From: a virus
Length of the DNA stretch: 24,102 nt
IMG/VR virus record: IMGVR_UViG_3300010354_000643
Coordinates: 1 to 24,102 of that record
Direction: 5' to 3' (one strand)
Part shown: positions 1 to 19,112 of the stretch, one piece after another
Layout of the letters: each line of letters opens with the position of its first letter
How positions within the stretch are numbered: position 1 is the stretch's first letter
Notes under the pieces: model-generated
The model's database searches: none
Seen by the model: the letters and a program-made list of their open reading frames with translations, nothing else
Told to the model about the DNA's origin: nothing
Made by a program: the position numbers and the translations under genes

Positions 1-3000
1 AAATTCCTCCATTTTGAGGTTTATATAGATTTCCACCAATATAATTATTAGAATAAATTATTTGTTCAGCATTCGGTAAAGTTTGAGTAGATACAGTTGA
101 TTGATTTGTTTGAGCAGTCCAAACTTTAAAATCACTAGATGATGAGCAAATTAAAGAAATAGCATATTGCTTATTGGGTTCTAAGTATATTGGCGATGGG
201 AATTTAACATTTGTTGCAGATTGTCCAGTGCTTGATGTTGTAATTCCAGTTGGATAAACTTCTGTCCTAGCATAATCTTGAATCAAATTAGTCTTTGGCA
301 CTCCACCAATATCTGTTTCTCTAATCTCAACAAACATTTTTTCGTTATTATCTTTACTTGAGAAATACAAGTCAACGGAAGTTAAAAACATTCCATCATT
401 ATCGGTTCTAAATGTCTGTGATAATGAATCTGTTTTTAATGCATTTAATGGTAATGCTGGTGATGATCTTCTTAAAGAAACATTACTTGTATTTGTTTGT
501 GAATTTATAATTCCTGATGCATAGAAAGTATTTTGTGTGAAAGAAATCGAAGTAGATGATGAATTAGTAAAGCTAGAAGATAACTTAAAAGTTTTAGTTC
601 CAACTCCAAATGATAATGTGGGTGTTGGGGTTTGAAGGGGGTCCTTTATAAAGAAACACCCTATTAAATCGCCATAATTATCAGTTATTAGAGATTGTTT
701 TAAAACTGATGCTTGAGCACCTGAAGTTTTTCCTACTAAAATTGCTCCTTGTGGAAGGTATCCAAAAAATCTTCCAGATGCATCATCTGATAAAGAATAA
801 GTATCAATATTTAAAATCGTTGATGATGGTGAATATATTGGAATAGATAAAGAAGTATTATATGGATTTTGGGAATAAGTTAAAGAGGGGGCAACAGAAT
901 TATAAACACCTTTTTTATGAGATGCTGTTGCTAATCTAAAGCAAGAGACTTTAACACCATTGTAATAAGCATTAACAGTTTCTCCAGTTTGGAATGCTGG
1001 AGAACCAGTAGTCATAGATATCTGTAAAAGTTTTGGAATAACATCAATATTTGAATTTCCATCAAAGAAAGAATAATATTGAGTATTTGGCTTAAGTCCA
1101 GTTGCATAGAACTGAACATTTTTGGATTTGAAACTATTTGAAGGTTTTGTACTTAAAATAAGTTCATTTACAAATGAATTATTCCATTCTCCCTGTGTTC
1201 TAATTACAACTCCATTTTCATAGTTAATTGATCTTACCCATGTATCAGAAGATGGTGTTAATTTAACGTAACCATTGTAATTTGCTATTCCTGCTGGATT
1301 AATATTTTGTTGAGCAGTTGCATAAGTTTGCCCAATTCCTGCAGAAACCTCAGTATAATTTAAAGTTACAATATCACCAGTTTTCTTCACATTTGCATCT
1401 AAAAGACTTAGATCCGAAGAAAAATCTGCATTTTCTATATTAATATCCGGACTAACTCCAATTTCTGATTTTAAAGAATATGAAGATATATCGCAATTAA
1501 GTTCTTGATTCTTAGTATTAATTATACAGTTAGCATCCAAATTTTCTAAATCAATAAATTCATTATTCTTAAAATCATCTACAAAAAATCCAGATTTAAA
1601 TCTATCAATTCCATCAGAATCTAATATTTGTAATGATTTTGTATTTAATTCCAATAATGATAATGAAGATGCTATCTCAACATTATTAATCCTATCTTCA
1701 AGAGATCCAATATCTTTCATTGTATATCTCTTATTGCTCACTAATGAAACTATGCTATCACTGGAGTTATAAAGATATGCTGGATGTTCAATGATTGCAA
1801 CATCCATAGAATCATCAATAGTTGTTGGTGCTTTTGGATTTTGTGCTGAAATTCCTTTTATTAAATTGAAAGTTCCATTTTTGTTTAATACAATTTTATC
1901 AATTCTTGGGAGATAATATGAATATCCTATTAAAGAACTTTCATTAGGTGCTAGAATTAAAGATGGATTATTTGGAGACGTGACAAAATATCTACTAGAA
2001 AAATCAAAAGGTGATTGAGATGTGGATGTAAATGGTGCAACTCTTGGTCTAAAATCTAAAGTGTCGGAAGATCTTAAATTATTTGATAAAATAGGAATAT
2101 CCTTTTCATATCTTTCGGCATCATATGATGCAACAGTATAAACATCTCCATCATCATCAGATGGTACAGTATAGTAGTCAAAAATAACTAATAATTTTCT
2201 GGAAGGTATAGATGATGTATTTTTTCTAATTATTTTAGAATAATCATAATATTGTTCTTTTTGACCTTTATCAAGAACATATTCTTGAGATCTATTAATA
2301 TAAAATCCAGTATCAATGCTTTGTATTGATGAAACAATATTAGATTCTTTGAAAACAACAGTTTCGCCATTAATAAATTTATTAGAATTTAGATATACAA
2401 ATTCAATCTTTGTCGGTGAATTCTTTGTTACTACTTGAGCTATAGCACCACTAGTTTGACCAATAACTTTTTCACCCAATATTGCGTTAACATTTAAATT
2501 AACACCAGTTTGAAAATTTAATCCATCCAAAACTGGGGAAGATTGGTTGATAGATTCATAAACAGCAATTACATTTGCAACATCTGGAACATTTAGTGAA
2601 ATTTCTTCATCTTCAATTCTTAATCCATAATATTTACTAGTTGACAGTCCAGAAAGTGCAGTAGAAAATCCAGCAATACATTTATCTACTTCTAATTTTT
2701 GACTTCTGATATAATTTTTTTTCTTATTTTTGATTGAATTTTTTCTAGCAGTAGCATTAACTACAATATTAGATTGTAATGTTCTTAATCCACTTAAAGT
2801 TATAAAAGTTCCAGATCCATCTAAAGAAAATTTATCAGATGTTAAAGATTCTATTTTTCCATCAGAATAAAATACTGAATATTTTTCTGCATCAAAATTA
2901 TCGAAATAAGCGTTATCGATATCTATGTCAGATAAACTTAAGGTTAAAGTTCCATTAGAGTTTGTAGATTTATTTTTTGCTTGTCTATTTACTTTTAATT

Positions 3001-5062
3001 CCGATCCAACAAAATTAACATCAGATACATTAGTATTATTTAATTTAGCATACAAGTAAGCATTTTCTTCATTTTGAATTGAGGGGTAACCAACAGAAAA
3101 ATTAACACTTGTTGTTGAATTTGGTCTTCCACCATCACAAACTCCACTTACTGTCGAAACACCAGAAAGAGTGATGATTAAACCATCAGAAGAAATGGAA
3201 GAAATTCTATTAAAAGTTTCTGCAGATAATCCTGTTCTCTGATATCGAATAATTGTATTAGTATTAACTCCAACAAAAGTTCTACCTGGAGATGATGCTA
3301 TTCCAGAAGCATTGATAATTAAAACGTCATTTGAATTGAAATTTTTTAATGTTTCCCGTGATAAAACAGTATCAGCAACAAAATCTGTTGATAATCCTAT
3401 AGAACTACAATCTTGATATACCGATTTAATATCATTTGTGCTATATGTTTTAACAGATTGTATTGACCTTGAAAATTCTTTTGACCCATTGATTGAAATT
3501 TGTTCACCTGGTGAAAAAATTCCAGATGTTTGAGTTAATGTAATTATTTCACTTGTTGGGTTAATAACGACATATCCAGAAGCTCCACTATTTTCTCCTT
3601 TAACATATGATGATGCTGGACAAGAATCAGAATCAAGAGATTGATTTAAAGTAATCTGGGTATAAGTTTGAACATCAAATAGATACAAATTCCAATTTGT
3701 ACTAGAACTTGAATAAGTATTATTATCCAACCCAAAAGAATATATTCTTGCCTTCCCTATTTCATTTCCAGATGCGGATGTAGTGGAATCCTTTCTCTGA
3801 TCATAAAAACTAACCGTATAGTTATTATCAATTCCCAATAAAGGAGATCCAGAAACATTATTAACTTTCAATAAATTTCCCATTTCAAAGGGAACTAATG
3901 AAGTAGAAATAATTTTTTTATCTCTTGGCTTTTCAACATCAAGGATTGTTGTTTCATTTTTTTCAATATCAAATCCACGAACATATGCCTTTCCTGGAGA
4001 AATTGATATTGATAATAAATCATTTGATGGGGTATTATTTTGATCAGTTTTTTGATTTTCTAAATAAATTCCATTTGAAAAAATTCCATCATTTAATGAA
4101 TTTTTTACATTGACGCTAAATGGAATTGTAGCATAATCGCCAGATTCGTCATATGTTCTTTGAGCAATATATTCTTTAATTAATGAATATGTGTTATTAT
4201 CCTGTAATTTTTTTACAACACCATTGGAAACTCTCAATACTTCAATAAAATTTTGATCGTTAAAATCATTAATGGATTTTGCCGTTAGTGATGCACTAAT
4301 TTTTAATCTATCTGCACCTGGAGCAGAATAATTAGCAAATCCTCTAGCATTATCAAAAAGATCTGGATTTGAATCTGAGGCAAATTCAATTGATTCTTGA
4401 ATTTGTAATCCTACTCTGTAAGATGGTGTGTTTGTATATTGATCAAGAATAATAGTTTCATCATTTACTGTTACAAATGATCCTCTAATATAATAAACTC
4501 CCTTAGATATTGATACTGCGGATCCAATAGACGTAGCATTTCTGTTAATTAAAGATGCTATTGTTTGTCCGGAATTAATCGTTGTATTTACATAATTAAA
4601 TGTATCTAAACTTATTAGAGTTTCTCCATCAGTAAATTGATTGATATTAAAATTAACATCAGAAGTCAGATATTTAACATATAAAGTATAATTTCCTTTT
4701 GACGATTTATTCTTCGTTAAAACATTTTTTACAATAGCTGTAATTTGTGAATTTTGACCTTTAATTTTCTTTCCAATTAAATTTTTTAAATATACTCCAA
4801 TATCAATACCTAAATGTGAATCATTAATTTGTACTGCATAATAATTTGGATCATATGTCGTATTTCCTGGAATGACTATGGATCCTTCTTTAAAAAAGTG
4901 TGATCCAAATAATTCTATTTGATTTTGAAGTATAGACTGTAATGTAATTAATTCCCTAGATTGAACTGGAAACCCTGGTTTAAACAGTACCCTATAAAAA
5001 TTCTTTGATGGGTCAAAATCATCAAAATATGGTGATATATTTAAATCTGTTTTTTGGGACAT
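1..5062 (-). CDS. DUF4815-type virion structural protein (partial, C-terminus outside window)
   Basis: The frame starts at an ATG at 5062 and stays open to the left edge, giving 1687 visible codons. The N-terminus (MSQKTDLNISPYFDDFDPSK, then NFYRVLFKPGFPVQSRELI) matches the opening I know from DUF4815 proteins of T4-like cyanophages. Further family-like landmarks are DTLDFRPR near residue 1000, YYLPRIDKIVL near 1045-1058 and KRYTMKDIGSLEDRI near 1108-1122. A second module near residues 1545-1660 (MFVEIRE, then PIYLEPNKQYAISL) looks like a jelly-roll-type beta domain. No signal peptide or membrane segment is seen, and the composition is Ser/Asn/Thr-rich. The start lies 2 bases after the gp8 stop, so the two genes are probably cotranscribed late. 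Its place after gp8 suggests a baseplate-periphery or fibre-attachment role analogous to T4 gp9/gp10. That role is inference; the DUF family itself has no established function that I know of. Confidence 0.85.
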   Translation of the reverse strand, partial: MSQKTDLNISPYFDDFDPSKNFYRVLFKPGFPVQSRELITLQSILQNQIELFGSHFFKEGSIVIPGNTTYDPNYYAVQINDSHLGIDIGVYLKNLIGKKIKGQNSQITAIVKNVLTKNKSSKGNYTLYVKYLTSDVNFNINQFTDGETLISLDTFNYVNTTINSGQTIASLINRNATSIGSAVSISKGVYYIRGSFVTVNDETIILDQYTNTPSYRVGLQIQESIEFASDSNPDLFDNARGFANYSAPGADRLKISASLTAKSINDFNDQNFIEVLRVSNGVVKKLQDNNTYSLIKEYIAQRTYDESGDYATIPFSVNVKNSLNDGIFSNGIYLENQKTDQNNTPSNDLLSISISPGKAYVRGFDIEKNETTILDVEKPRDKKIISTSLVPFEMGNLLKVNNVSGSPLLGIDNNYTVSFYDQRKDSTTSASGNEIGKARIYSFGLDNNTYSSSSTNWNLYLFDVQTYTQITLNQSLDSDSCPASSYVKGENSGASGYVVINPTSEIITLTQTSGIFSPGEQISINGSKEFSRSIQSVKTYSTNDIKSVYQDCSSIGLSTDFVADTVLSRETLKNFNSNDVLIINASGIASSPGRTFVGVNTNTIIRYQRTGLSAETFNRISSISSDGLIITLSGVSTVSGVCDGGRPNSTTSVNFSVGYPSIQNEENAYLYAKLNNTNVSDVNFVGSELKVNRQAKNKSTNSNGTLTLSLSDIDIDNAYFDNFDAEKYSVFYSDGKIESLTSDKFSLDGSGTFITLSGLRTLQSNIVVNATARKNSIKNKKKNYIRSQKLEVDKCIAGFSTALSGLSTSKYYGLRIEDEEISLNVPDVANVIAVYESINQSSPVLDGLNFQTGVNLNVNAILGEKVIGQTSGAIAQVVTKNSPTKIEFVYLNSNKFINGETVVFKESNIVSSIQSIDTGFYINRSQEYVLDKGQKEQYYDYSKIIRKNTSSIPSRKLLVIFDYYTVPSDDDGDVYTVASYDAERYEKDIPILSNNLRSSDTLDFRPRVAPFTSTSQSPFDFSSRYFVTSPNNPSLILAPNESSLIGYSYYLPRIDKIVLNKNGTFNLIKGISAQNPKAPTTIDDSMDVAIIEHPAYLYNSSDSIVSLVSNKRYTMKDIGSLEDRINNVEIASSLSLLELNTKSLQILDSDGIDRFKSGFFVDDFKNNEFIDLENLDANCIINTKNQELNCDISSYSLKSEIGVSPDINIENADFSSDLSLLDANVKKTGDIVTLNYTEVSAGIGQTYATAQQNINPAGIANYNGYVKLTPSSDTWVRSINYENGVVIRTQGEWNNSFVNELILSTKPSNSFKSKNVQFYATGLKPNTQYYSFFDGNSNIDVIPKLLQISMTTGSPAFQTGETVNAYYNGVKVSCFRLATASHKKGVYNSVAPSLTYSQNPYNTSLSIPIYSPSSTILNIDTYSLSDDASGRFFGYLPQGAILVGKTSGAQASVLKQSLITDNYGDLIGCFFIKDPLQTPTPTLSFGVGTKTFKLSSSFTNSSSTSISFTQNTFYASGIINSQTNTSNVSLRRSSPALPLNALKTDSLSQTFRTDNDGMFLTSVDLYFSSKDNNEKMFVEIRETDIGGVPKTNLIQDYARTEVYPTGITTSSTGQSATNVKFPSPIYLEPNKQYAISLICSSSSDFKVWTAQTNQSTVSTQTLPNAEQIIYSNNYIGGNLYKPQNGGI

Positions 5063-5064
5063 GT

Positions 5065-6621
5065 TTAGAATTCCAGTATGATTTTAATGTCTTCTTTTTG
5101 TCTGGGATTTCTTGTAACTATTGGTCTATTATCCAAATAAAGAATAGTTCCGCTTGATTTATTTATCTCCGAAGGTGCGATTCCATTTGTAAATTTAGAT
5201 GATAAATTAACTATCTTAGATGAAGAAATTGAAGTAGTAATTCCTGAAAAATTCGCATCAATTGTACAACTAAAACTATTTTCCGAGGTTATAGTTCCAC
5301 CAAAAGGATTAAAACTAACAATAGTAGATTCATTAGCAACGTTAAAAGAATCTTTTTGATCTTGAGTTGTAGAATTAAAATATAATGATCTATCTGTAAA
5401 ATATTTTAAAACTTTTGTTTCTGTATCATATGATGCTATATAACCAACGGCTGTCCCAATGCCCGGAACAGATTGATATATTTTAGTTCCAGGTATAGCA
5501 TCAGATTCATTCGTTACTGCAGATAATTTTAATGCAGAAAGACCAGAAAATTCACCATCAGTAAATACTGTTGTATCAGACCCATAAATTGTTGGATTTT
5601 TAATAATTCCAATCTGAGCAAATTTTGTATCTACGGGAAAATCTTTAGTTGAATCATCAAATCTAGAATATATAAGAACTCTTTCAGATCCCAATTCTGA
5701 ATAAGGATCATATCCATGTCCTTTTGAAGGGGGAATTATTGGGATTAAATTTGCAAATGCAGTTGCACCAGAATTGATTGAAGAAAGATCAACTCTCCCA
5801 TAAGTATAATTTTTACCACCTGAAGATACGATGGCTTCTGTTATTTTTCCACCATCAACATTAACAACTACTTTTCCACCAGTACCATCTCCCAATATAT
5901 CAAGTTCAGCATTCGTAGAATTATATCCTGATCCTTGATTTTGAATATAGATTTTTTTTATTTGGTTACCATTTATGGATGAATTTGCATTTTCACGAAC
6001 AGCTTGTATTTGTGCATCCGTTGATGTTTCCCAATTATTGGGAATTGGTATATATTCTACAGAATCGAATTTAATAATATCACTTGGAGATACTGTAAAT
6101 AGATATTTCCAAATATATCCATCTCCACTTTCTCCTGCTCTAGATGGTTCAAGATCTATAAAAGTAGGTTCATCTTGGGAAAAATTTCCAGATGGTTTAA
6201 CCGCACTAGAACCATTATCAATACATATATAAACTCTATAATCTTTATTAATTACATAATAATTTGCATCATATAATCTAGATGAATTTGTTTGTGGTGA
6301 TTGATTATTGATACTATAATCATGTCTATACATTTCATAAATTGTTCCCTGTTTCCATTCAACTTTTTTTATTACCCTTCGCACATTATTAGATGATATC
6401 TTTCTGCCAAATATAATTGTATTTTTGACATGATTTAAATAATTAAAATCATCTCTTGGACTAGGAATACTAGAATCCCACGTAGTAGATCTACCAATAC
6501 CAACACCAACAGGGTTTGGCAGACTCAAAAAAACATAGTAAGAATTGTCAGTATTTTCAATAGAATCGACAAAGTTTTTGGCGTTTAAAATTCTAAATTG
6601 GTCTGTAACAATTGCAGCCAT
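5065..6621 (-). CDS. 8: Baseplate wedge protein gp8 homologue
   Basis: This 518-aa protein resembles T4 gp8, a dimeric component of the baseplate wedge. Shared landmarks are an N-terminal IVTDQFRI (T4 IVTSKFRT), the central GDGYIWKYLF (T4 GDGYVWEYLF, here about residues 164-173) and the C-terminal LYLDNRPIV followed by EDIKIILEF (T4 MENRPPII, then EINILFTF). T4 gp8 is about 334 aa. The extra length includes residues about 226-275, with two GG-x-GY-type beads (NQGSGYNS and SSGGKNYT) like those repeated in the giant upstream protein. It has its own perfect late promoter 19 bases before the ATG, and its stop is 2 bases from the next gene. The ATG at 6621 gives the family-like N-terminus; the ribosome-binding site is weak. 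The gp8 assignment is firm; how the insert behaves is unknown. Confidence 0.92.
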   Translation of the reverse strand: MAAIVTDQFRILNAKNFVDSIENTDNSYYVFLSLPNPVGVGIGRSTTWDSSIPSPRDDFNYLNHVKNTIIFGRKISSNNVRRVIKKVEWKQGTIYEMYRHDYSINNQSPQTNSSRLYDANYYVINKDYRVYICIDNGSSAVKPSGNFSQDEPTFIDLEPSRAGESGDGYIWKYLFTVSPSDIIKFDSVEYIPIPNNWETSTDAQIQAVRENANSSINGNQIKKIYIQNQGSGYNSTNAELDILGDGTGGKVVVNVDGGKITEAIVSSGGKNYTYGRVDLSSINSGATAFANLIPIIPPSKGHGYDPYSELGSERVLIYSRFDDSTKDFPVDTKFAQIGIIKNPTIYGSDTTVFTDGEFSGLSALKLSAVTNESDAIPGTKIYQSVPGIGTAVGYIASYDTETKVLKYFTDRSLYFNSTTQDQKDSFNVANESTIVSFNPFGGTITSENSFSCTIDANFSGITTSISSSKIVNLSSKFTNGIAPSEINKSSGTILYLDNRPIVTRNPRQKEDIKIILEF

Positions 6622-6665: not shown

Positions 6666-9600
6666 TTATAAATCATCTTTTAGTTCTTTACTTAAACCTC
6701 CCGTTAATCTTAAACCATATCCTCTTCTGACTATTTGTGGGAACGTAGTTAGACCGCTATTAACTGTATATCCACTTACGGCAATTGAAACTGGATTAGA
6801 TTCTCTTGTTATTCCATACAATCTACCCCAGGAAAATCTACCACAGAATTTGCCAGAAGTTTCAATTCCAACAATATTTGATGTTGAAAGAACATTGCAA
6901 GTTATAATACCTACTAAATTATTTCTGGATATTTGACTAATAACATAAACATTATCGAAAAATGTTGTTCCAATACCCACTACATCAGTATCGGAAGTAT
7001 TAATCGACGTTACCCCATTTCCTATATTGGTTTCCGAAACTAATATAGGATATCCAACTTTTAAGGAATCTATAATAGATGATGAATCGTATAAAACATT
7101 AAATGTTAAAGCTTTTGATACATTTACACCAAATCCACGAGAGGTGGATATTCCAGTTATAATACCAGAAAATCCATCAACAAAAGTAATTTCTCTAATA
7201 TTCTCAGTTAGAATTGGTGGCTCTTCACAAAGGATAGATGGTGGATTTTGTGATGTATATCCACTGCCTGGATTTATAATAGTAACTGAAGTTATGATTC
7301 CTGAACTAGATACATTTGCTGTTGCAAGTGCGGTAGATCCAATTCCTATAGGATTTGATATTTTTAAAGTAATGGTAGAATTTGGTACATATCCATTACC
7401 ACCAGTTAGAATTCCAATGGATGAAATTGTAGACATACCACTGACAGTTGCTGTAAATCCTGCAGCAATTGGATCTGAAGAATCAATAATAAATGCTTTA
7501 AATCCAGATTCGGATAATTTTATATCAGTATTTGGATCATTTTCTTCATATTTAAATAATTGAGCATAATCTACAAATATTTCTTTATCTGTAGGTTTAA
7601 CATCTTTGATAATTCTTGCGGAGGGGAAAACATATGATTCTAAAGAATCTCTAGACTTAGGTTGATAATCCTCATTGATAAACAAATCTCTTTTTTGCTT
7701 AGTCCAATGTAAAGGTTTAAAATTATCATCATCAATTCCATCACCAAGATAAATGCCCGTTTCTACAATATCAGCACTTTGAATGAGGGAAACAATACGG
7801 TTATCTTGCCTAATTGAGTTTAGAACTTCATTATTTTTATCTATTTGGACAGTATCTCCTGGTTTTATAGTTTCATTTACACTTACTTGGAAACTATCAA
7901 CATCCTTTGTCCCCCTATAGAAAAATATTGCTATATTATCTTCTGGTTTTGGAGCTTCAGTAAATCTAAAAGTAGTTCCTCCGGTAAAAGTATAGGATAC
8001 CCCAGGTTCTTGTAGAACACCATTTAAAAATATTAAGAGAATAGTGTCGAAATCAATTAAATCTGATTCCGGGTTACTTCTATCTTTTTCAAAACTAAGT
8101 AATTCATTATTTCTAAACAGTGGGAATCTCTTTCTTACACCATTTTGGAATAATTTTATACTATCAATATAATCTAATTCTCCAAACTGCCAACATGCAA
8201 ATGAATCATTAAAAATATTTTCTACGGTAAATATTAACTCTTCTATTGGATCAGACAATCTTGCATCGGTTACTAATCCAACAACTTTAAATTTATCACC
8301 TATATTAAAGGCATATCCTGGTTTGGTAATTGTAAAAGATTCTACTCTAAAGAAACTTTGACCTATACCAGTTTCTTTACTTTGCCCAATATTTACACTT
8401 ACTGAAAAACCAATACCTGTAGTCGTTGTATTTCCAACTGATAGTCTAGAAACTCCTGTGATTGGTAGATTATTATAATTTGGACTATCAATTTTTAATA
8501 TTGGATTAGTATATCCACTTCCACCATTTATGACGTTAAATGCTAAAGTTCCACCAGTTCCGACTGTTGCTGTTATAGTAGCACCATATCCAGTAGAATC
8601 GGTTATTCCGATTGAGATAACATTTCCCCTATAACCAGAACCAACAATATCTGTTGATCCTATTCCTACGGCAGTGATGCTTCCCCCAGCGCCGATAACT
8701 GCCGTAACAGAAGCGCCAACTAAAGGTGCATATCCTAAACCTCCAGTGGATCCCAAAGAAAGTATAATTCCACCACGAGGAATTTGATTTTGGTTGATAT
8801 CGTAATCAACTATTACAATTTCTTCAGTATTTGGTCTTGTAATTCCTGTAAAAGAAATCGTAGTAATTCCTGTTAAAGAATTTAAATCATAATCAAATCC
8901 GGCATTATTTTCAGTACTTGGTATTTGGAATATATCGTTAATAAAAACTAATCCGCTACCAGGCTCTGCCCCACCTATATTTTGACCATCTTTTGTGAGG
9001 GTAAATGTTCTTTCAGTTCCATTAAATTGATCTGATATATCATCATATATTCTATTTAATTCATAATCTCTGCGTAAAAAGACTCTTCCATTAAATGTCG
9101 ATTTTGGTAAAGGTAAACTAGATGTATCTAATCTATCATTATCACCTCTACCAGCTGGTGGTTCTGAAAAATGAATTTTATTTCCAACAATATTAAATGA
9201 TCCTCTATAAATTCTAGCTTCGGTACTATCCAAATGTGTGGTTGCTGATGAACCAACAAATCCTCTTTCAACTTCGACTAAAGGTATTGTTCCTAAACCT
9301 GTAATTGGACCCAAATTAGTCGTTCCAAATCCAACATTGTTAACTCTGAAAAATTCTTCATCAACTTTTATCAAATCTCTAGGTTTTATAGAAGAAATTC
9401 CAGATAATCCTATAAATGTATCTGCTATTCCTATTGATCCGTCATTATATTGTAATGAATAATTGAGGGGAGTCCATAGAACTGGATATTGATTAACACC
9501 ATTAACTGTAATTACACATTTTTCAAGTTTTTTCTTCATCTCTAAACGATGAGCATTTCCAGATCCATTTGAATTATAAGTAAATCCTATATCTGTTGTT

Positions 9601-12600
9601 TCATTTCCTGATAATCCAGTAAGTTTAAATCTATCACCATCAATTCTAATCGCATAAACTGTTGAAGGTGCAATATCGGTAATAATTCCTGTAATATAAT
9701 TAGATCTAATGGATGTTTGTGTAGAAGTATTTGAAATAACTATAGAATTGTTTAAATTCGTAGAATAATAAGTACCTTCAATTAAAGAATTTAAACTTTG
9801 ACTTGAAGTAATAGAATTAATTCCGATTGAAACAATTGACCCAACCCCCACATTAGTATCAGATAAGAAAATACTAGATCCGACACTCAATAAAGTAGTA
9901 TTCGCTATACCTGTAATTACTGTTGATCCTGTGGAAACAACATCACCAACAAAATAAGTGAATGTAGAACCAATTGATATAATTGTCGTTCCTGCGGAAA
10001 CTGAAGATCCTAAAATTAAATCTCCAACATTAATTCGTGCAGTAGAGGCAACTCCAGTTATTGTTGAAAATCCTACTATAAAATCTCCAGTAAAACTTCT
10101 ACCTCCAACTATGGTTGTCCCAATTCCAACTGGACTTGGAACAATTCCAGGTAATGTAGAATCTGCAGTATAAATAAGTTCCTCTCCTGTTTGGAAGAAA
10201 TGATTTGGAATTGTAAAGACTCCAGTTTCTTTATTCAAAATATTAGATTTAGAAGGATTAAATGTTTTTTGGAAAATTGGAGTTCCTTCATAATTAAGAT
10301 CAAAAGATAATCTATCTTTTCCAAAATTGTTCAAAGAACCATAAAATGCAGTTTTTAGTTCTTCAATAGCAATTCCATAAGTTAAATTATCTGGTTGATT
10401 AAATTCGTCGCTATCAAAATATATAAATTGATCATATTTTTGAATTAAAATCGGATCAGATAAAAATCTCAAATCTGGATAGAATTTAATAATAACTTTT
10501 GAATTTTCAATTTCTGCACCAAATGTTCCAATTCCAGATGTTGAAGCAGTTCCAACTGATAAAAATGGATATTGCCTTAGAGCAACTGATTCATTATCAG
10601 AAACTGCAAGAAATTGGTGGAGAGCGACTGTCGTACCAACTCCAACTCTAATTAAAGATTTTAGGGTTCCTTCCACACCCAAATCATAAGAATGAATTGT
10701 TGTATTACCAATAGATACCTGATAAGAAGATTCTAGTCTTGCACTTCTTTCCAATCCAGGATCTTGATCTCCAACCAAATATCTATAAGTGCCTATACCA
10801 GAAGATGTTGTTCCAAATCCAACTGTTTTAGATTTTAAGGTGACTCTAGAATTGGTATTGTTTGTAAAATTTAATTTAAATATTCCATTTTCAACGCTTA
10901 CTCCAAAAGTTCCTATAAATCCAAAAGAAGATCCACTTATAGTGTTTTCAGTATCAAAATAATATTCACTAATATATGAATTTGTTCCATCGTGATAAGC
11001 TAGAACTTCAAAATAATTCATATCTAAAGTATCTTCATTTTTAATAAAAACATTAGAATATACAGAATTAATTGATTCAAATTGAGATTGGAATATATTA
11101 GTTGTTATTCCTATTGTGGGGCATGTATTTATTTTTCCAGATAATCTCAAAAATCCTAAATCAGTGTATCCCACACCAATATTTTCAAAATTTGGTGTAA
11201 AATAATCCCTATAAACTTTTAGATAATAACTAGTTGTAAAAGGATCTGCAGGATCAAATCTTAAAGTGTTATTATTATTGTATGCAAAAACTCCACTCAA
11301 ATTTCCCAAAGAAGAATCACCAGTATAAAGATCGGATTTGTTGAGTGTATATGTATTTGCGTAATTATTTAAAACTACCAATTCTGATGCTTGTATGTTA
11401 GTTTTTTGTTCATCCGTAATTTGAATTAAAAATTTTGCAAAATTATCAGTAACTGAATATTCTAATACTTCACTAAATGTATCTTTGTTTATTTCGGAAC
11501 TGGAGAATTTACCGCTAATATCATCAATTTGAAGACATCTATTTGAAATACATTGAATATAATCTGCAACTTTTTTAGATTTTAAAATAATTGCATTTGA
11601 AGAATTTGCTGTTGGTAAATAATCTAAAGCGAGATCAAAATTATTAACAGTATCTACTCTTTGTTCAGAAATAAAATCTAAAACCCTTGTTAATGATTGA
11701 TCAGAACCTATTCCAACTGCTGATGTTGATGTAATTCCAACGTCAACAAAGTTTTTCATGCCTGTTGGGTGAACAAGACGATTTATAGAATCTTTAACAA
11801 CATCAAAAGTTAAAACTTTATTTTTTATATAACCTTCACCTGATGTTTTTATGGAATATGAAAGATTTTGGTAATAATCATTATCAGGTAACACTTGCTG
11901 ACTATCGTTTAATTTTCCAATATCGTTTTTCCAACCATAATTTTTTTCATTTGATGACCTTACAATAAAATTACCAGATAATCTAATATCTTCATCTACT
12001 TTTGCAATATTTCCAGAATTCTCTCCTGTTAATAAATCATTATAAGAAAGATTTTTCTCTCCAGATACTATTAAATAATTTTTATATGAATTATCTATTA
12101 ATAAATTAGTTTTTTGACCATTAACAACAAGATATTCACCATTATAAAAAATTCCCGAAACTTGATTTATTTTGAATAATGGATAATTCTCTTCTTTTAC
12201 TATACTTGAGAACGTTGTTTGTATTGGAGATGCAACTCCAGCATTGCTAGTAACTTCTCCTATATTATACTTTAAAATTGCGGGAATAGAATTTATAAAC
12301 TCAACTACTCTAAAAAATTTGTATCCATTATCTGGTGAATTAAAACCAGTTCCTGGAGTAACTGTATTTCCTAATTCATCTGTTATCGATTGTCTTTGAA
12401 TTCCCTCAACAAAAATATAATCATCTACTTTAAATGGTGGTGTTGTAAATCCATTGATAGGAGGTGTAGAAATTTCACACTCAACAATCCCATTTGCGTA
12501 ACTTACGACTTTTTCTACGCCAATACCATTGCTATTTTTTTCGGTAAAAATAGTATGGCTGACTGATTCTAGACCTTTTGGTTCTTCGATAATAGAAACA

Positions 12601-15600
12601 TCTAAAATTGCACTACCACTCAAGTTTGCTTCTATTACACCGGAAGAGATTTTTTTTCTAGAAATATCATTAACTAATGATAAAACTGGTGGAGATATGA
12701 AATTTCTACCTCCAAAAGTAACTGTAATGTTATCAATTTTATCATCATCTTTGAGACGAATTAATCTTGATATATCCGCCTTTGGTTTTAATGTCTTATC
12801 TGATGCATATTCAAAACCCTCATTTAAAATATTAAGATCTTCAATTTTTCCGATATTTGTTGATTTTGGTTTTATAATTGCATTTGTTCCAGAACTAGAA
12901 CTGCTTATACCAGAAACATATGGTAATTTTTTATATCCAAATCCACCAGATATTAAATATAATTTTTCTATTCCACCTTTTGCGTTTTGGGAATTTGTAT
13001 AGTATCTAATAGTTTCACATTCATTCTTAACATATGAATATTTTTCAGGAACATCTCTTAAAGAAATACTAAAGGTGGTAGTGCCAACTCCAAAAACTGA
13101 ATATTCTCCGTTATAAACACTATCTTGATATAAAATCTTAGATGCATCTCTAACTTCAGAATCAACTGGGAGTAAAGATCCAGATTTTTCTAAATTGTAA
13201 TAGAGACTGAAAGGAATATCATTATTAAATCCAATTGTAATTGTAGCATTTGATGATATTCCAACTGTTCCAAGTCCCGAAATTGAAAAAGACGACGTAC
13301 TTCCGGTAGAAACAAATTCATTTTTAAATTGAGAATCGAAGAAGAATTTTAATTTATAATCTACAAGAGAAGAATCAGATACATTAAAAATAAGATCATT
13401 ATTTTTAATAACATTTAATTGAGGATTAATTAAACTTATTTCTTGATTTGATCCTCCAGTTGTTAAAATAGATACATATTTTGGTGGGAAAGATATTGAA
13501 TCTTTATGAGTATCACATAGGTAAATATAATCTGCATCTACCCTGTTAATAAAGTATGGTCCCGTAGATAATCCAGAAGCAATTGAATCTAAAGAGTTAT
13601 AAAAAACTTTATCTCCAGTTATAAATCCATGCGAAGGAATATTAATTTGACTGGTAATTGTACTTATTCCTGATGAACTAAACTTTCTAGGATTTACTAA
13701 AATTTTATCAAATGATGAATTATATTTTATGTAAACACTACCAGAAGTTCCAATTCCAGTTGCTAATCCAGGATTTACAATTAAATTAATTTTATCACCA
13801 TAATTTAAATTATGTGATGTTGAGACCGAAACTTGAGTGGTTATTTTTTTAATATTTGCCTTTACTTGATTATTTTCAGATTCGAAATAATAGTAATCGC
13901 TATTCGATCCTGATTGATTGAAGAATAAACCATTTGTAGTTGTTGTTAATCCAATACTAGTTACAATACCAATTGTGTTTGGGGTTCTATTGATAATGTA
14001 AACATATTGACTATTTCCTGATGAAGGAAGATTAAAGTCTGAAGAATTTGAAGTATTCCTAACTACTAAAGGATCGAATCCATTTGGTTTGACAAATAAA
14101 ACTTTTTGATTATTTTTGAAGGGGTGATTTGGAATGTATATACTTTGATTTTCTACAGAAATATTAGTAGATTGATTTCCAAGTTGAGATGAAATAACAT
14201 TAAATTTTCCTGTTTCAAGTCCAACACTTACAGATTTAGTTGGATTGAAGTATATTCTTTCATTTTCATTGGAATCAAAATACTCTACATCTAAATCAAT
14301 TAAAAATGTATTTGGATAAAAACTTATCAAAGTTCCTGCAGTATGTCCAATCGACACTGGTCGGGACACTCTTAAAATATTTTCATTTTTAAAAATATTT
14401 AAAACAGAAACAACTTCATTTTCAATTTTTAGAGAAGATCCAACACTAACATTATTGGGTATATCTGATACGTATATGTCAGTAATTATTCCAGATACAG
14501 AATTAGATGGAACACTATAAACTAATGATGATAAATTTGAAGGAATTTTAATACTATAAAATCCATTTAATTTTGATATTGAACTCGTAGAAACTCCAGA
14601 AATATCTATAGTATCGCCATCTAATAAATTATGGTATGGATTGATTTTAACTTCTAATTGATTTTCGGTTAGTCTTTTTATGATTGCATTTTCATATATT
14701 TCACTAGTTGTTGAAATTTTTACAATTTCTTTTCCAGTAATGAAGTTAACAGAAGCTGAAGCTCCGCTTCCTTCAGTATCATTATTATCAAATACTAAGT
14801 AATCATTTACAGAATACCCATCACCCGGTTCAACCACAGACAAACTTTCAATACTTCCATCAGAAACAGAATTAATTAAAGCGGTTTGCTTTAAGATTTT
14901 ATTTGATTCTAAAATAAAATCATTATTGGAATAATTTTGATTTACTCTATATGGGAATGTATTTCTAATCAATCTTGATTGATTAAAATTAAAATTTTGC
15001 TTTTGATTTATATTTGCAAAGACAGGAGATCCTTTATAAGTATTACCTACAAAATAAGGAAATTCTGGTACTAAATTATTGGAGATTAAACTAGTTGTAA
15101 GTCCAACATAATAAGCATAAATTCCATTTGGAAAATCTGGAGTTTTACTAAATCTTCCATTATGTTGATCTAAATCTCCGTTTGCGGTATACTTATAGTC
15201 TTCAACAAAAAATCCAAGATCAAATTCAGCAGGTCTGTTGGTTACATTAGAAAAATTTTTAGTATATCCAACATTTAATAATTTTATAGTAGAATTGTCA
15301 TCATTTGGATTTGAATATCCATATGGTCCATATATTGGATAACCATCGTAAGACCATCCAATAATTTTTGAATGAGATTGTCCTAAATCTGAAAAAGATA
15401 CCCCTTCTCTGCTAGTTGAATATCCTACAATTCCATATGATAAATCATTTTCATCTTCAACTAATATTTCATCAGAAAACTTGTAATTATTGTTGACAGT
15501 TAGAGATCTAACATCAATCATTAAAGATCCATTTTTTCCAGATGATTTAACAAAAATTGAAGTGTTATTTGGATCATAATTTGTTCCACCATTTATTACG

Positions 15601-18600
15601 ATAATGTTAATAATTTTTCCATCTTCAACGTTAGCTCTTAGTTTAGCACCGACTCCAGTACCATTAACAATTAATTCCGGAGATGAATTATAATATTTTC
15701 CTCTATTTTGAACTTCAACTTTTACTATTTTTCCATTAATTATAATAGGTTTCAATTGAGCTGAAAATCCATTTTGTATATTAATTAATGGTCTCTTATG
15801 AAAATCAAAAATTGTGGATCCATAGTCTGTTCCTGGTTCATATAAGTAAGCATCTACAATTTCTCCCCTAAAAACAGGGGTTGCAGTAATTGTTCCAATT
15901 ACACCAGAATACTCAATTTCTAAATTAAGTTTTATCTTTGGATATTCAAATATTTGTGAACCAGATCCACTAGAAGAAAAAATTACATTTTTATTTCTTT
16001 CAAAATTATCTTTTGAAGGACTTAAAGATATTATTCCTGCATCAGCAAGTTTAAAATTGGAGTCATCTATTTTAAGAACATAATATTGATTGTTAGTTGA
16101 AATCCCAGAAATTGGGGTTGAAATTGTCGATCCAAATCCAATTTCAGTTCTATAATTTATCAAATCACCATGATTAAATCCATGATTTTTAAATGATATT
16201 ACACTAGAAATAGTTGATATTCCACTTGGATTAATTTTTAAAGATCTATTTTCATATCCAGATCCACCATTGAGAACTTTAATATTAGTTAAAATATTTT
16301 TTCCTTCTAATAACCTAAATTTATGAATTCCTCCAGCATTTGCTGTAGTAAATCCGACTGTATTAATTCCGGAATTTAAATCAGATAATGTATTATAAAG
16401 TTTAATCGAACTAGTATTAATAATTTCTGGAAAATATATTGCACCATTTATCAAATATCTCCCTTGATCTGTATTAGATTGTTGATAAGTTCCAATACCA
16501 AGAGGTTGATTTCCATTAGGATTGTAAACTATGGGAGTTCCATTTTGTAAATTATGAAATTCTAGAAAAGAAATTGTTTCATCACTTACATTGAGTCCAC
16601 CACCAAATGTGGAAAGTTGAGCATTAAAATCAAGTTCTTTAAATTGCTCTTCAACTATTGGTAATAAAACAGCACCAGATCCATTTCCTCCAGTTACCGA
16701 GGCTGAAATCACTCTTTGAACATTTACCGTATTAGGATCAACAATAACTTCCTTTAAATTTCCTTTAACAATAACGTCAACCAAAGCAGTTGTTCCAGTG
16801 CTTGTTACTGGGTTTGAAATTACAACTGTAGGTGGAGATAAAACATCATAATCACTTCCAGGATTCAATACTTTGAGATTGGTTAAAGGTCCATAATATA
16901 TTTTACTATTTGACTTATAGTTTATAATTTCAACTCCATTTATAAGCATTCCCACTGGACCAGGATTTGTTTCTGTAGGAGATCCAGATTTAATACTTGG
17001 GTTTAATGGAATTTTTCTTAATATTTTTTTAGGTGTTAATTTTTTATTTCCGCTATGTTCTAGTATAGTAAAAGTGTGTGTAGAAATTTGAGATGATCTA
17101 TCAAATTTAACCGCATTATTTGTCCCAATAAAAGATTTTGCATTATACAATCTTATTTTATTTTTTATATCTGTACTATTTGAAGGTTCAATTACTTCAA
17201 CATAATATGTTTCATTGGGAGATAATCCATTAATTTGATACGGAGAACCAGTATATACTACAGTATCACCAGTAATAAAAGAGACTTCTGTTGGAAAAGA
17301 TATTACAGTATATTTTTCTTCTCCAGTATCTTCTAAAATTATTTTTCCAAAGTTGGGGAAAATATCAGTTATATTTGAAGTTGATGTAATTGATAATGAT
17401 TGCGATACTATTTGTTTATCTACTGTATAATCTGGTAAAGAATTTGATGCAACATGAATATAATTCGATTCTTCATCGTAAGTATTCTGGACATTTGCAA
17501 TAATTTTTGGATATTTTAAAGGTAGATTAGATGAAGATGCATATTTTATATTTCTTCTAATACTGATTTTTCGATTTGAATTTATTGCAGTTATATTTTT
17601 ATCTAAAGATACAACTTCATTTATTATGGAAGTTACAATCGCATTTTCTACGATTATATTTTCAGAGTTTCTATCTAGAATATTGACCGAATCTCCGACT
17701 TTTAAACTCGATTTATCTGGAATTTCGTATAATGTTACTTGATTGCTAGCAAAAGATTTAATTTCATATCTTGAACTTGTATTATAAATCCAAGAATTGA
17801 ACATTATTTGTTTATAAGATTTATTTGTTGGGTTTTCAATTTTTTCCCCAATATGTTTAACGGATATAGATTCTCCAACTGATCTGAAGTAAATATCATT
17901 TTGATTTTCAAGTTCTGATAAAATACCTGTAATTCTTAATTCTACTTTTTTAGATGTATCTCCCTTTTCATATCCATAGACAATTTTATCAGATGTTAAA
18001 TCTGATCCAGGACTAATTTCAGATGTTACTCCCACACAACCAAAAAATTGATTTATACTTTTATTTGTATAAGTTATAGTTTGGTTATTGCAAGTAAATT
18101 TACCAGATTCATCAAATCCAATTGTAGAATCTACAGTAATAACTGATGAATTAATTTCAACCTTATCAATAACTTTTGTTTTTGGTGTAATTTGAAAGGT
18201 TCCTTCAATTAAACTTTTATCATTAAATCCTGCAAATAATTGAATTTTATAATAATTTTTATTGTTTCTCTTAATAATTTCTACTTCGGAAACTGGACCA
18301 GAAGCAGTATCGTCTATACTCCTAATTTCTTGACCAACTAAGTTATTTGGATCTCCACCAGAAATTAGCTCTGTTACTAATACTTCTCTTCTAATAAATT
18401 CAGCATCAGAAGGTTTAATTAAAAAATCTTCTAATTTTAAAATTGTAGGTGTTACGCCATATAAAACATTATATAAAATTCTAAATGATTCATCAGTTCC
18501 TTTTGTTTGGTAAAAGCTTTTAATTTGCTTTATAAAATTATTTACATTCAGTTCTGAAACAAAATCTACATTTTCAAATCCTGGAGCAAGAGTTTGCTTT

Positions 18601-19112
18601 AATTTTTTATAAAACTCTTTTAAAAATAAAGAACTTAAGTTGTGTACGGGACTTGTGGTATTATGAGAAGCAGCTTTAGAACTAGAAAATTCTAATTCTT
18701 CTGGATTATCCGAATTGTGATAATTTACAATTCCACTAAATCCTCTTACACATCCAGTAAAAGAATTTGTTGTAATTCCTGTGTATGTAATAATTTCATC
18801 ATTAATTTTAAGTAGTCCATATTCAGATGGAAAACCTTTTGTATTATTGACGTAGATGGTTGTATCGCTAATACTAACAGGTGATGATAAAGTATAAGTT
18901 CCAGAAATTACTTCTGGAGTTAAGTTGTTTAATTTTTGATATTGATCTAAATTCTCAGCAACATCAATTGATCCGCCCTGAAATTCCTGAGAGATGTAAT
19001 ATTGTTTTAGAAATTCTGCAAATTTAGGAGTTTCTGATATGACAAACTCTGGTAACTGATTTTCAATAATTTGCTGAATTTTAACTCTAGAATCAAAACC
19101 AGTTGTTATCAT
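6666..19112 (-). CDS. 7: Giant gp7-position baseplate wedge protein with YHYH domain and GG-x-GY repeats
   Basis: A single uninterrupted 4148-aa frame lies between gp6 and gp8, where T4 encodes wedge initiator gp7 (1032 aa). The N-terminus (DSRVKIQQIIENQLPEF, then FLKQYYISQE) matches cyanophage proteins at this locus; gp7 identity rests on synteny more than on motifs. Modules seen: a conserved N-terminal head to about residue 240; about 15 GG-x-GY beads scattered over residues 740-3960; a YHYH-like domain at about 1215-1345 (DGYPIYGP near 1255, DQHNGR near 1313, with YAYY where YHYH is expected); a Gly/Thr/Ser-rich repeat stretch at about 2988-3108; and a C-terminal region ending in FSWGRLYGI and RRGYGLRL. 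The ATG follows the gp6 stop by one base, behind a good GAGG site. It probably forms the bulk of the wedge or arms projecting from the baseplate. No signal peptide or catalytic motif is evident. Confidence 0.85.
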   Translation of the reverse strand: MITTGFDSRVKIQQIIENQLPEFVISETPKFAEFLKQYYISQEFQGGSIDVAENLDQYQKLNNLTPEVISGTYTLSSPVSISDTTIYVNNTKGFPSEYGLLKINDEIITYTGITTNSFTGCVRGFSGIVNYHNSDNPEELEFSSSKAASHNTTSPVHNLSSLFLKEFYKKLKQTLAPGFENVDFVSELNVNNFIKQIKSFYQTKGTDESFRILYNVLYGVTPTILKLEDFLIKPSDAEFIRREVLVTELISGGDPNNLVGQEIRSIDDTASGPVSEVEIIKRNNKNYYKIQLFAGFNDKSLIEGTFQITPKTKVIDKVEINSSVITVDSTIGFDESGKFTCNNQTITYTNKSINQFFGCVGVTSEISPGSDLTSDKIVYGYEKGDTSKKVELRITGILSELENQNDIYFRSVGESISVKHIGEKIENPTNKSYKQIMFNSWIYNTSSRYEIKSFASNQVTLYEIPDKSSLKVGDSVNILDRNSENIIVENAIVTSIINEVVSLDKNITAINSNRKISIRRNIKYASSSNLPLKYPKIIANVQNTYDEESNYIHVASNSLPDYTVDKQIVSQSLSITSTSNITDIFPNFGKIILEDTGEEKYTVISFPTEVSFITGDTVVYTGSPYQINGLSPNETYYVEVIEPSNSTDIKNKIRLYNAKSFIGTNNAVKFDRSSQISTHTFTILEHSGNKKLTPKKILRKIPLNPSIKSGSPTETNPGPVGMLINGVEIINYKSNSKIYYGPLTNLKVLNPGSDYDVLSPPTVVISNPVTSTGTTALVDVIVKGNLKEVIVDPNTVNVQRVISASVTGGNGSGAVLLPIVEEQFKELDFNAQLSTFGGGLNVSDETISFLEFHNLQNGTPIVYNPNGNQPLGIGTYQQSNTDQGRYLINGAIYFPEIINTSSIKLYNTLSDLNSGINTVGFTTANAGGIHKFRLLEGKNILTNIKVLNGGSGYENRSLKINPSGISTISSVISFKNHGFNHGDLINYRTEIGFGSTISTPISGISTNNQYYVLKIDDSNFKLADAGIISLSPSKDNFERNKNVIFSSSGSGSQIFEYPKIKLNLEIEYSGVIGTITATPVFRGEIVDAYLYEPGTDYGSTIFDFHKRPLINIQNGFSAQLKPIIINGKIVKVEVQNRGKYYNSSPELIVNGTGVGAKLRANVEDGKIINIIVINGGTNYDPNNTSIFVKSSGKNGSLMIDVRSLTVNNNYKFSDEILVEDENDLSYGIVGYSTSREGVSFSDLGQSHSKIIGWSYDGYPIYGPYGYSNPNDDNSTIKLLNVGYTKNFSNVTNRPAEFDLGFFVEDYKYTANGDLDQHNGRFSKTPDFPNGIYAYYVGLTTSLISNNLVPEFPYFVGNTYKGSPVFANINQKQNFNFNQSRLIRNTFPYRVNQNYSNNDFILESNKILKQTALINSVSDGSIESLSVVEPGDGYSVNDYLVFDNNDTEGSGASASVNFITGKEIVKISTTSEIYENAIIKRLTENQLEVKINPYHNLLDGDTIDISGVSTSSISKLNGFYSIKIPSNLSSLVYSVPSNSVSGIITDIYVSDIPNNVSVGSSLKIENEVVSVLNIFKNENILRVSRPVSIGHTAGTLISFYPNTFLIDLDVEYFDSNENERIYFNPTKSVSVGLETGKFNVISSQLGNQSTNISVENQSIYIPNHPFKNNQKVLFVKPNGFDPLVVRNTSNSSDFNLPSSGNSQYVYIINRTPNTIGIVTSIGLTTTTNGLFFNQSGSNSDYYYFESENNQVKANIKKITTQVSVSTSHNLNYGDKINLIVNPGLATGIGTSGSVYIKYNSSFDKILVNPRKFSSSGISTITSQINIPSHGFITGDKVFYNSLDSIASGLSTGPYFINRVDADYIYLCDTHKDSISFPPKYVSILTTGGSNQEISLINPQLNVIKNNDLIFNVSDSSLVDYKLKFFFDSQFKNEFVSTGSTSSFSISGLGTVGISSNATITIGFNNDIPFSLYYNLEKSGSLLPVDSEVRDASKILYQDSVYNGEYSVFGVGTTTFSISLRDVPEKYSYVKNECETIRYYTNSQNAKGGIEKLYLISGGFGYKKLPYVSGISSSSSGTNAIIKPKSTNIGKIEDLNILNEGFEYASDKTLKPKADISRLIRLKDDDKIDNITVTFGGRNFISPPVLSLVNDISRKKISSGVIEANLSGSAILDVSIIEEPKGLESVSHTIFTEKNSNGIGVEKVVSYANGIVECEISTPPINGFTTPPFKVDDYIFVEGIQRQSITDELGNTVTPGTGFNSPDNGYKFFRVVEFINSIPAILKYNIGEVTSNAGVASPIQTTFSSIVKEENYPLFKINQVSGIFYNGEYLVVNGQKTNLLIDNSYKNYLIVSGEKNLSYNDLLTGENSGNIAKVDEDIRLSGNFIVRSSNEKNYGWKNDIGKLNDSQQVLPDNDYYQNLSYSIKTSGEGYIKNKVLTFDVVKDSINRLVHPTGMKNFVDVGITSTSAVGIGSDQSLTRVLDFISEQRVDTVNNFDLALDYLPTANSSNAIILKSKKVADYIQCISNRCLQIDDISGKFSSSEINKDTFSEVLEYSVTDNFAKFLIQITDEQKTNIQASELVVLNNYANTYTLNKSDLYTGDSSLGNLSGVFAYNNNNTLRFDPADPFTTSYYLKVYRDYFTPNFENIGVGYTDLGFLRLSGKINTCPTIGITTNIFQSQFESINSVYSNVFIKNEDTLDMNYFEVLAYHDGTNSYISEYYFDTENTISGSSFGFIGTFGVSVENGIFKLNFTNNTNSRVTLKSKTVGFGTTSSGIGTYRYLVGDQDPGLERSARLESSYQVSIGNTTIHSYDLGVEGTLKSLIRVGVGTTVALHQFLAVSDNESVALRQYPFLSVGTASTSGIGTFGAEIENSKVIIKFYPDLRFLSDPILIQKYDQFIYFDSDEFNQPDNLTYGIAIEELKTAFYGSLNNFGKDRLSFDLNYEGTPIFQKTFNPSKSNILNKETGVFTIPNHFFQTGEELIYTADSTLPGIVPSPVGIGTTIVGGRSFTGDFIVGFSTITGVASTARINVGDLILGSSVSAGTTIISIGSTFTYFVGDVVSTGSTVITGIANTTLLSVGSSIFLSDTNVGVGSIVSIGINSITSSQSLNSLIEGTYYSTNLNNSIVISNTSTQTSIRSNYITGIITDIAPSTVYAIRIDGDRFKLTGLSGNETTDIGFTYNSNGSGNAHRLEMKKKLEKCVITVNGVNQYPVLWTPLNYSLQYNDGSIGIADTFIGLSGISSIKPRDLIKVDEEFFRVNNVGFGTTNLGPITGLGTIPLVEVERGFVGSSATTHLDSTEARIYRGSFNIVGNKIHFSEPPAGRGDNDRLDTSSLPLPKSTFNGRVFLRRDYELNRIYDDISDQFNGTERTFTLTKDGQNIGGAEPGSGLVFINDIFQIPSTENNAGFDYDLNSLTGITTISFTGITRPNTEEIVIVDYDINQNQIPRGGIILSLGSTGGLGYAPLVGASVTAVIGAGGSITAVGIGSTDIVGSGYRGNVISIGITDSTGYGATITATVGTGGTLAFNVINGGSGYTNPILKIDSPNYNNLPITGVSRLSVGNTTTTGIGFSVSVNIGQSKETGIGQSFFRVESFTITKPGYAFNIGDKFKVVGLVTDARLSDPIEELIFTVENIFNDSFACWQFGELDYIDSIKLFQNGVRKRFPLFRNNELLSFEKDRSNPESDLIDFDTILLIFLNGVLQEPGVSYTFTGGTTFRFTEAPKPEDNIAIFFYRGTKDVDSFQVSVNETIKPGDTVQIDKNNEVLNSIRQDNRIVSLIQSADIVETGIYLGDGIDDDNFKPLHWTKQKRDLFINEDYQPKSRDSLESYVFPSARIIKDVKPTDKEIFVDYAQLFKYEENDPNTDIKLSESGFKAFIIDSSDPIAAGFTATVSGMSTISSIGILTGGNGYVPNSTITLKISNPIGIGSTALATANVSSSGIITSVTIINPGSGYTSQNPPSILCEEPPILTENIREITFVDGFSGIITGISTSRGFGVNVSKALTFNVLYDSSSIIDSLKVGYPILVSETNIGNGVTSINTSDTDVVGIGTTFFDNVYVISQISRNNLVGIITCNVLSTSNIVGIETSGKFCGRFSWGRLYGITRESNPVSIAVSGYTVNSGLTTFPQIVRRGYGLRLTGGLSKELKDDL
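9785..10150 (-). repeat. Gly/Thr/Ser-rich tandem segment in the giant wedge protein
   Basis: About residues 2988-3108 of the giant protein contain degenerate copies of a roughly 25-residue unit: INVGDLILGSSVSAGTTIIS, then FVGDVVSTGSTVITGI, then LLSVGSSIFLSDTNVGVGSI with VSIG. The pattern V-G-x-x-V-x-G-x-x-(V/I)-x-x-GT-x-(V/I)-xSI resembles short beta-strand repeats of phage fibres and bacterial adhesins. I infer a beta-rich spacer or binding arm. The copies are diverged, so this is not a nucleotide-level perfect repeat. Confidence 0.55.
15095..15365 (-). other. YHYH-like domain inside the giant wedge protein
   Basis: Codons for about residues 1250-1340 of the giant protein carry GWSYDGYPIYGPYGYSNP, then DLDQHNGRF, then IYAYYVGLT. 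The DG-x-PIYGP and HNGR landmarks are those of the YHYH family (Pfam YHYH). That family occurs in secreted proteins of bacteria and, as I recall, in large cyanophage structural proteins. The name-giving tetrapeptide is replaced by YAYY, so a metal- or histidine-dependent function, if the family has one, may be lost. The exact domain edges are uncertain. Confidence 0.7.

Follow-up and report, generated by a model that had tools for sequence, protein, structure and literature searches.

A three-stranded glycine-rich bead recurs in a giant gp7-like baseplate protein of a cyanophage and in other virion and bacterial proteins

The window that we analysed is a 24,102-nt stretch of viral DNA which, judged from its relatives, belongs to a T4-like cyanomyovirus. 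Its minus-strand genes include gp25, gp6, a gp7-like wedge protein of 4148 amino acids, gp8, and a VrlC/DUF4815 protein (positions 2-5062) that is incomplete because it is interrupted by the window end. The giant gene has gp6 and gp8 as its neighbours, an arrangement that T4 and cyanophages share, and the order gp25-gp6-giant gene-gp8-VrlC is kept in the Synechococcus phages S-T4, ACG-2014f, and S-8S55. Profile matches together with the gene order 25-6-7-8 identify the two wedge proteins, and the T4 gp8 structure (1n7z) aligns with residues 163-202 and 482-518 of gp8. As an aside, gp8 of S-T4 (17001-18563) is annotated as starting at 17331, which looks about 330 bases late, because both the reading frame and the match start at 17001.

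6666..19112, minus strand: giant gp7-like baseplate wedge protein, 4148 aa (phrog_2885 baseplate wedge, 3568 bits)
5065..6621, minus strand: gp8 baseplate wedge protein, 518 aa (PF09215, 4.5e-11)

Both proteins contain copies of a unit that we call the bead. A bead has 36-45 residues and consists of a strand, a GxGY turn, a second strand, a GxGA loop, and a third strand; the consensus is G-x-I-x-x-hydrophobic-x-hydrophobic-x-N-x-G-x-G-Y, a short strand, G-x-G-A, and the third strand. The conserved residues are mainly glycine and tyrosine, and they lie in turns. DSSP finds three strands per bead in the AlphaFold models of gp7 and gp8. The pLDDT is about 90 across the gp7 bead region that spans residues 700-1470 and about 80 across the gp8 beads, within a gp8 model that is weak as a whole (mean pLDDT 61). 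The first-pass annotation had described the unit as hydrophobic-x-V-x-N/GG-x-GY followed by a strand; this is a true element, but it covers just the portion of the bead from the first strand to the turn. The bead is likely to be a structural module. The beads of the window are listed below, with the residue named in the first-pass annotation ("earlier") where it differs; probabilities are from profile-profile comparison.

5854..5970, minus strand: gp8 bead A, aa 218-256 (bead HMM and run counts)
5734..5853, minus strand: gp8 bead B, aa 257-296 (bead HMM and run counts)
16764..16895, minus strand: gp7 bead 741, aa 740-783 (probability 96, profile of non-gp7 beads)
16623..16763, minus strand: gp7 bead 785, aa 784-830, without the GxGY turn, absent from the earlier list (probability 96)
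16206..16301, minus strand: first part of gp7 bead 943, aa 938-969 (probability 93; AlphaFold strand order)
15870..15944, minus strand: probable remainder of bead 943, aa 1057-1081 (suggested by model strands 362-369 and 378-393)
15738..15869, minus strand: gp7 bead 1082, aa 1082-1125, absent from the earlier list (probability 94)
15624..15737, minus strand: gp7 bead 1126-1163, earlier 1130 (probability 98)
15501..15623, minus strand: gp7 bead 1164-1204, earlier 1169 (probability 96)
14730..14861, minus strand: gp7 bead 1418-1461, earlier 1421 (probability 93; 96 with T4 gp18 98-138)
12855..12980, minus strand: gp7 bead 2045-2086, earlier 2049 (probability 94)
12747..12854, minus strand: gp7 bead 2087-2122, earlier 2091 (probability 83)
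12633..12746, minus strand: gp7 bead 2123-2160, earlier 2128 (probability 96)
8556..8681, minus strand: gp7 bead 3478-3519, earlier 3486 (probability 89)
8433..8555, minus strand: gp7 bead 3520-3560, earlier 3525 (probability 89)
8268..8366, minus strand: borderline bead 3583-3615, earlier 3591 (probability 53; 93 with bead 1418)
7305..7436, minus strand: gp7 bead 3893-3936, earlier 3897 (probability 98)
7197..7304, minus strand: gp7 bead 3937-3972, earlier 3941 (probability 97)

The first-pass annotation counted about 15 beads in the giant protein. Twelve of these 15 sites are supported and 3591 is borderline, but 2418 and 3445 give no signal. With beads 785 and 1082, gp7 has 14 supported beads in total. 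The two beads that had been proposed in gp8 are both confirmed, although they lie at 5734-5970, outside the interval of 7230-16890 that had been given for the repeats.

Several other domains are interspersed with the beads of gp7. A YHYH domain (PF14240, 8.6e-28; aa 1244-1345, window 15078-15383) lies between beads 1164 and 1418. Two inserted barrel domains (aa 831-937 and 960-1057, window 16302-16622 and 15942-16235) both carry an H-(N/G)-(L/F)-x2-G motif, which has further copies near residues 1494, 1663, 1767, 1828, and 2971. The first barrel resembles a domain of the E1 proteins Uba1/Uba6 (VIA-align Z up to 8.5), and the second resembles the endosialidase barrel of phages K1F and phi92 (Z 6.1-6.6, 20-26% identity). 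The strand order in the AlphaFold model suggests that an inserted barrel domain divides bead 943, whose remainder would start at residue 1057. In S-8S55 gp7, the homologue of bead 3893 is interrupted after its second strand by about 300 residues that contain propeller-like repeats, and its third strand follows them; thus a bead can itself house further domains.

Are these copies homologous? A profile built from 16 window copies had 61 matches of more than 8 bits among a set of phage proteins, whereas reversed or shuffled versions of these proteins had none. This profile is circular for the window itself, so only held-out hits were counted, and because the test was partly circular we added three independent ones. 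First, profiles built from gp8 alone score 11-17 bits on gp14, VrlC, and further virion proteins, while controls reach at most 2.1. Second, when per-bead profiles of orthologs were compared all against all, the median probability was 56 for bead against bead and 0.3 for bead against control; sites 2410 and 3446 match almost nothing in this bead-against-bead matrix. Third, a profile of 287 beads from outside gp7 was slid over the alignment of gp7 orthologs. The supported sites score 83-98, and the highest of 187 reversed windows scores 32. By this kind of profile-profile match above reversed controls, 14 gp7 beads and both gp8 beads belong to the family. With a broad bead HMM, phage proteins yield 1174 hits that exceed 10 bits, all confined to gp7, gp8, gp14, VrlC, and a small number of further virion proteins, and reversed or shuffled sequences yield 0, so the beads are not chance. 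Two-bead profiles of gp8 and of gp7 1126-1204 match each other with probability 97.8. Thus the proposal that the copies within gp7, and those of gp7 and gp8, share ancestry is borne out.

In most cases the actual unit comprises two beads rather than one. Each of the 81 gp8 ORFs that we scanned has two beads (162 hits), and complete gp8 runs consist of exactly two in 74 of 74 cases. At bacterial loci, even runs outnumber odd ones by 71 to 16, and 55 of 87 runs are exact pairs. There is no even bias in gp7 (104 even, 137 odd) or in VrlC (15 and 15); perhaps divergent or interrupted beads were missed in the odd runs. From the run lengths and from the alignment to T4 gp18 that is discussed below, we infer that two tandem beads together probably make up a single small, closed beta barrel of six strands.

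Beads are not confined to gp7 and gp8. They also occur in the neck protein gp14, in VrlC, in lambda-type tail tubes, in a CrtC lipocalin, and in a multicopper-oxidase protein. In relatives of our phage, the VrlC beads lie at about residues 1830-2010, past the portion that is contained in the window. A genome scan with a single gp14 stretch as the query found 60 bacterial loci from many phyla. The lambda-like tail tube proteins of Pseudomonas and Stenotrophomonas (PF16460, 2e-49) contain exactly one bead pair. This is the identical type of bead: the Pseudomonas pair matches the PHROGs of cyanophage gp14 (3e-12), gp8 (4e-10), and gp7 (2e-9). On the other hand, the tail tubes have a single, consensus-like pair in a siphophage-type tube, and their solved relative, 25vd, lacks it. 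Because 25vd aligns on either side of the pair (residues 110-200 of the bead-bearing tube stand opposite 106-113), the pair is a clean insertion. In bacterial genomes, the CrtC lipocalin protein holds one pair, and four units precede the multicopper oxidase domain; as far as the domains tell, the CrtC lipocalin protein and the proteins with multicopper oxidase domains are distant from phage genes. We found no bead in gp7, gp8, or gp14 of T4, and none above 4 bits in gp18 of the cyanophage S-T4. Searching phages with the consensus pair by tblastn gave no match, probably due to low-complexity masking.

The copying was ancient and extended beyond gp7 and gp8. Beads at the same position are 44% identical across phages, whereas different beads are just 29-30% identical, whether within one phage or between two; similarity among beads at the DNA level is no higher than background; and in a tree of 80-residue pairs, the pairs group by position, with modest support. 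The idea of a mobile bead that is copied within and between genes therefore needs qualifying. Beads do occur in other virion proteins and have been cleanly inserted into tail tubes, but these identities and the background-level DNA similarity speak against recent copying. Nor do the data support a special sharing between touching virion proteins, as had been suggested. The beads of gp7 and gp8 do not form an exclusive clade either: the C-terminal pair of gp7 clusters with the pairs of gp14, tail tubes, and CrtC in the tree (again with modest support).

We also compared the bead pair with domain I of the T4 tail sheath protein gp18 (PDB 3FO8 and 3FOA), an inserted, outward-facing six-stranded barrel that binds the retracted long tail fibres (PMC3004832). 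Domain I has six strands and a helix, and the model of the gp8 pair resembles it in the register that the GxxY motif gives. Residues 222-298 of gp8 superpose on 99-188 of gp18 over 72-74 residues (rmsd 2.6-3.0) with a Z of 6.3, which is within the range of common arrangements. This structural alignment starts with 222 opposite 99, and the offset of 123 is the same as that from aligning GSGY of gp8 with GSNY of gp18. In profile comparisons, T4 gp18 98-138 matches gp7 bead 1418 with probability 96 and bead 3585 with 91, while control windows of gp18 reach at most 6. The second half of domain I has no such sequence support (the best comparison with beads gives 33, which is not significant) and it carries an inserted helix; and of course gp18 is a different protein. 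We consider it probable, not proven, that domain I is a diverged bead pair. Three gp18 mutations, G106S, S175F, and A178V, inhibit fibre retraction (PMC3004832). In numbering with the methionine removed, these fall on the glycine of GSNY and on residues of the SSSGLAA loop, and these two loops correspond to the two signatures of the bead.

The bead does not seem to be catalogued. No model in our copies of Pfam and NCBIfam matches it. The bead profile and the consensus pair gave only chance-level matches in the PDB, a Foldseek search of the PDB with a long gp7 segment gave no match at E < 0.001, and a search of the literature for the motif yielded no pertinent paper. The top VIA-align row for the gp7 bead region, which was barely probed this way, is a T cell receptor chain (Z 3.9). 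We rejected the tail of cyanophage A-1(L) as a comparison as it is from an unrelated myophage. A known parallel is the Ig-like decoration domains of lambda gpV, T5 pb6, and T4 Hoc, which are also beta domains on virion proteins, are exchanged between phages, and have been proposed to provide weak adhesion. However, the bead repeat is a half-domain of three strands that is marked by GxGY and GxGA, and it is inserted in loops, whereas Ig-like domains are mainly terminal. Among phage proteins, no Pfam Ig model matches the bead stretches at E values up to 1; the sole Ig hits are below the cut-off and lie elsewhere (gp7 614-642 and VrlC 1352-1408).

What might the beads do? We propose that the bead would be a half-domain of about 40 residues and that a tandem pair would close into a six-stranded barrel whose ends are near each other, so that such a barrel could sit within a loop of another protein and leave the fold of its host undisturbed. 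On this view, pairs entered gp7, gp8, gp14, and VrlC of the cyanomyoviruses at an early date and multiplied there, and they reached tail tubes and further bacterial proteins by separate insertions; domain I of T4 gp18 is most likely such a pair that has diverged. In the virion, a pair would form an outward knob that, through its two glycine-rich loops, docks fibres or adjacent proteins or is weakly adhesive. We lean, though not strongly, towards this view of the pair as a docking or adhesion knob that would be exposed in cyanophages. A broader version is that a single widespread and uncatalogued insertion domain has been reused by phages for docking fibres or proteins, with the GxGY turn and GxGA loop as the docking site in the T4 sheath, in the baseplate and neck of cyanophages, and in the tail tubes of siphophages. 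This seems rather doubtful to us, but it may be so.

Another explanation is that beads are decorations that weakly bind carbohydrate at the cell surface and thereby speed adsorption. Insertions at the surface of tail tubes and baseplate proteins would fit, such a role has been proposed (and is unproven) for the Ig-like domains on phage tail tubes (PMC8718954, PMC9230969), and the adjacent barrel domains of gp7 resemble a phage endosialidase barrel. But the beads do not share any obvious pocket of conserved polar or aromatic residues, and we think that glycan binding is unlikely. Alternatively, beads could be pure scaffold: inert spacers that make the baseplate of cyanophages larger and stiffen gp7 and gp8. 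The beads of gp7 do alternate with other inserted domains, and their positions are kept across the clade. Nevertheless, domain I of T4 gp18 makes no inter-subunit contacts in the sheath and yet its loop mutants have functional effects (PMC3004832), and we are skeptical that the beads are inert. Finally, that the motifs are chance glycine-tyrosine turns without homology is extremely improbable overall: sites 2418 and 3445 (2 of 15) do behave this way, but the 1174 hits, with 0 in controls, and the high profile probabilities rule it out for the two gp8 sites and for 12 of the 15 in gp7.

The bead family brings recurring glycine-rich stretches of large cyanophage virion proteins, and of many bacterial proteins, under a single name and offers a solved structure as a candidate for their fold. 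It is also a case, outside of the Ig-like domains, of beta domains being swapped among virion proteins. And since the probable kinship with gp18 connects abundant marine viruses with a domain of the T4 sheath for which mutants are known, a docking role for the bead should be testable.
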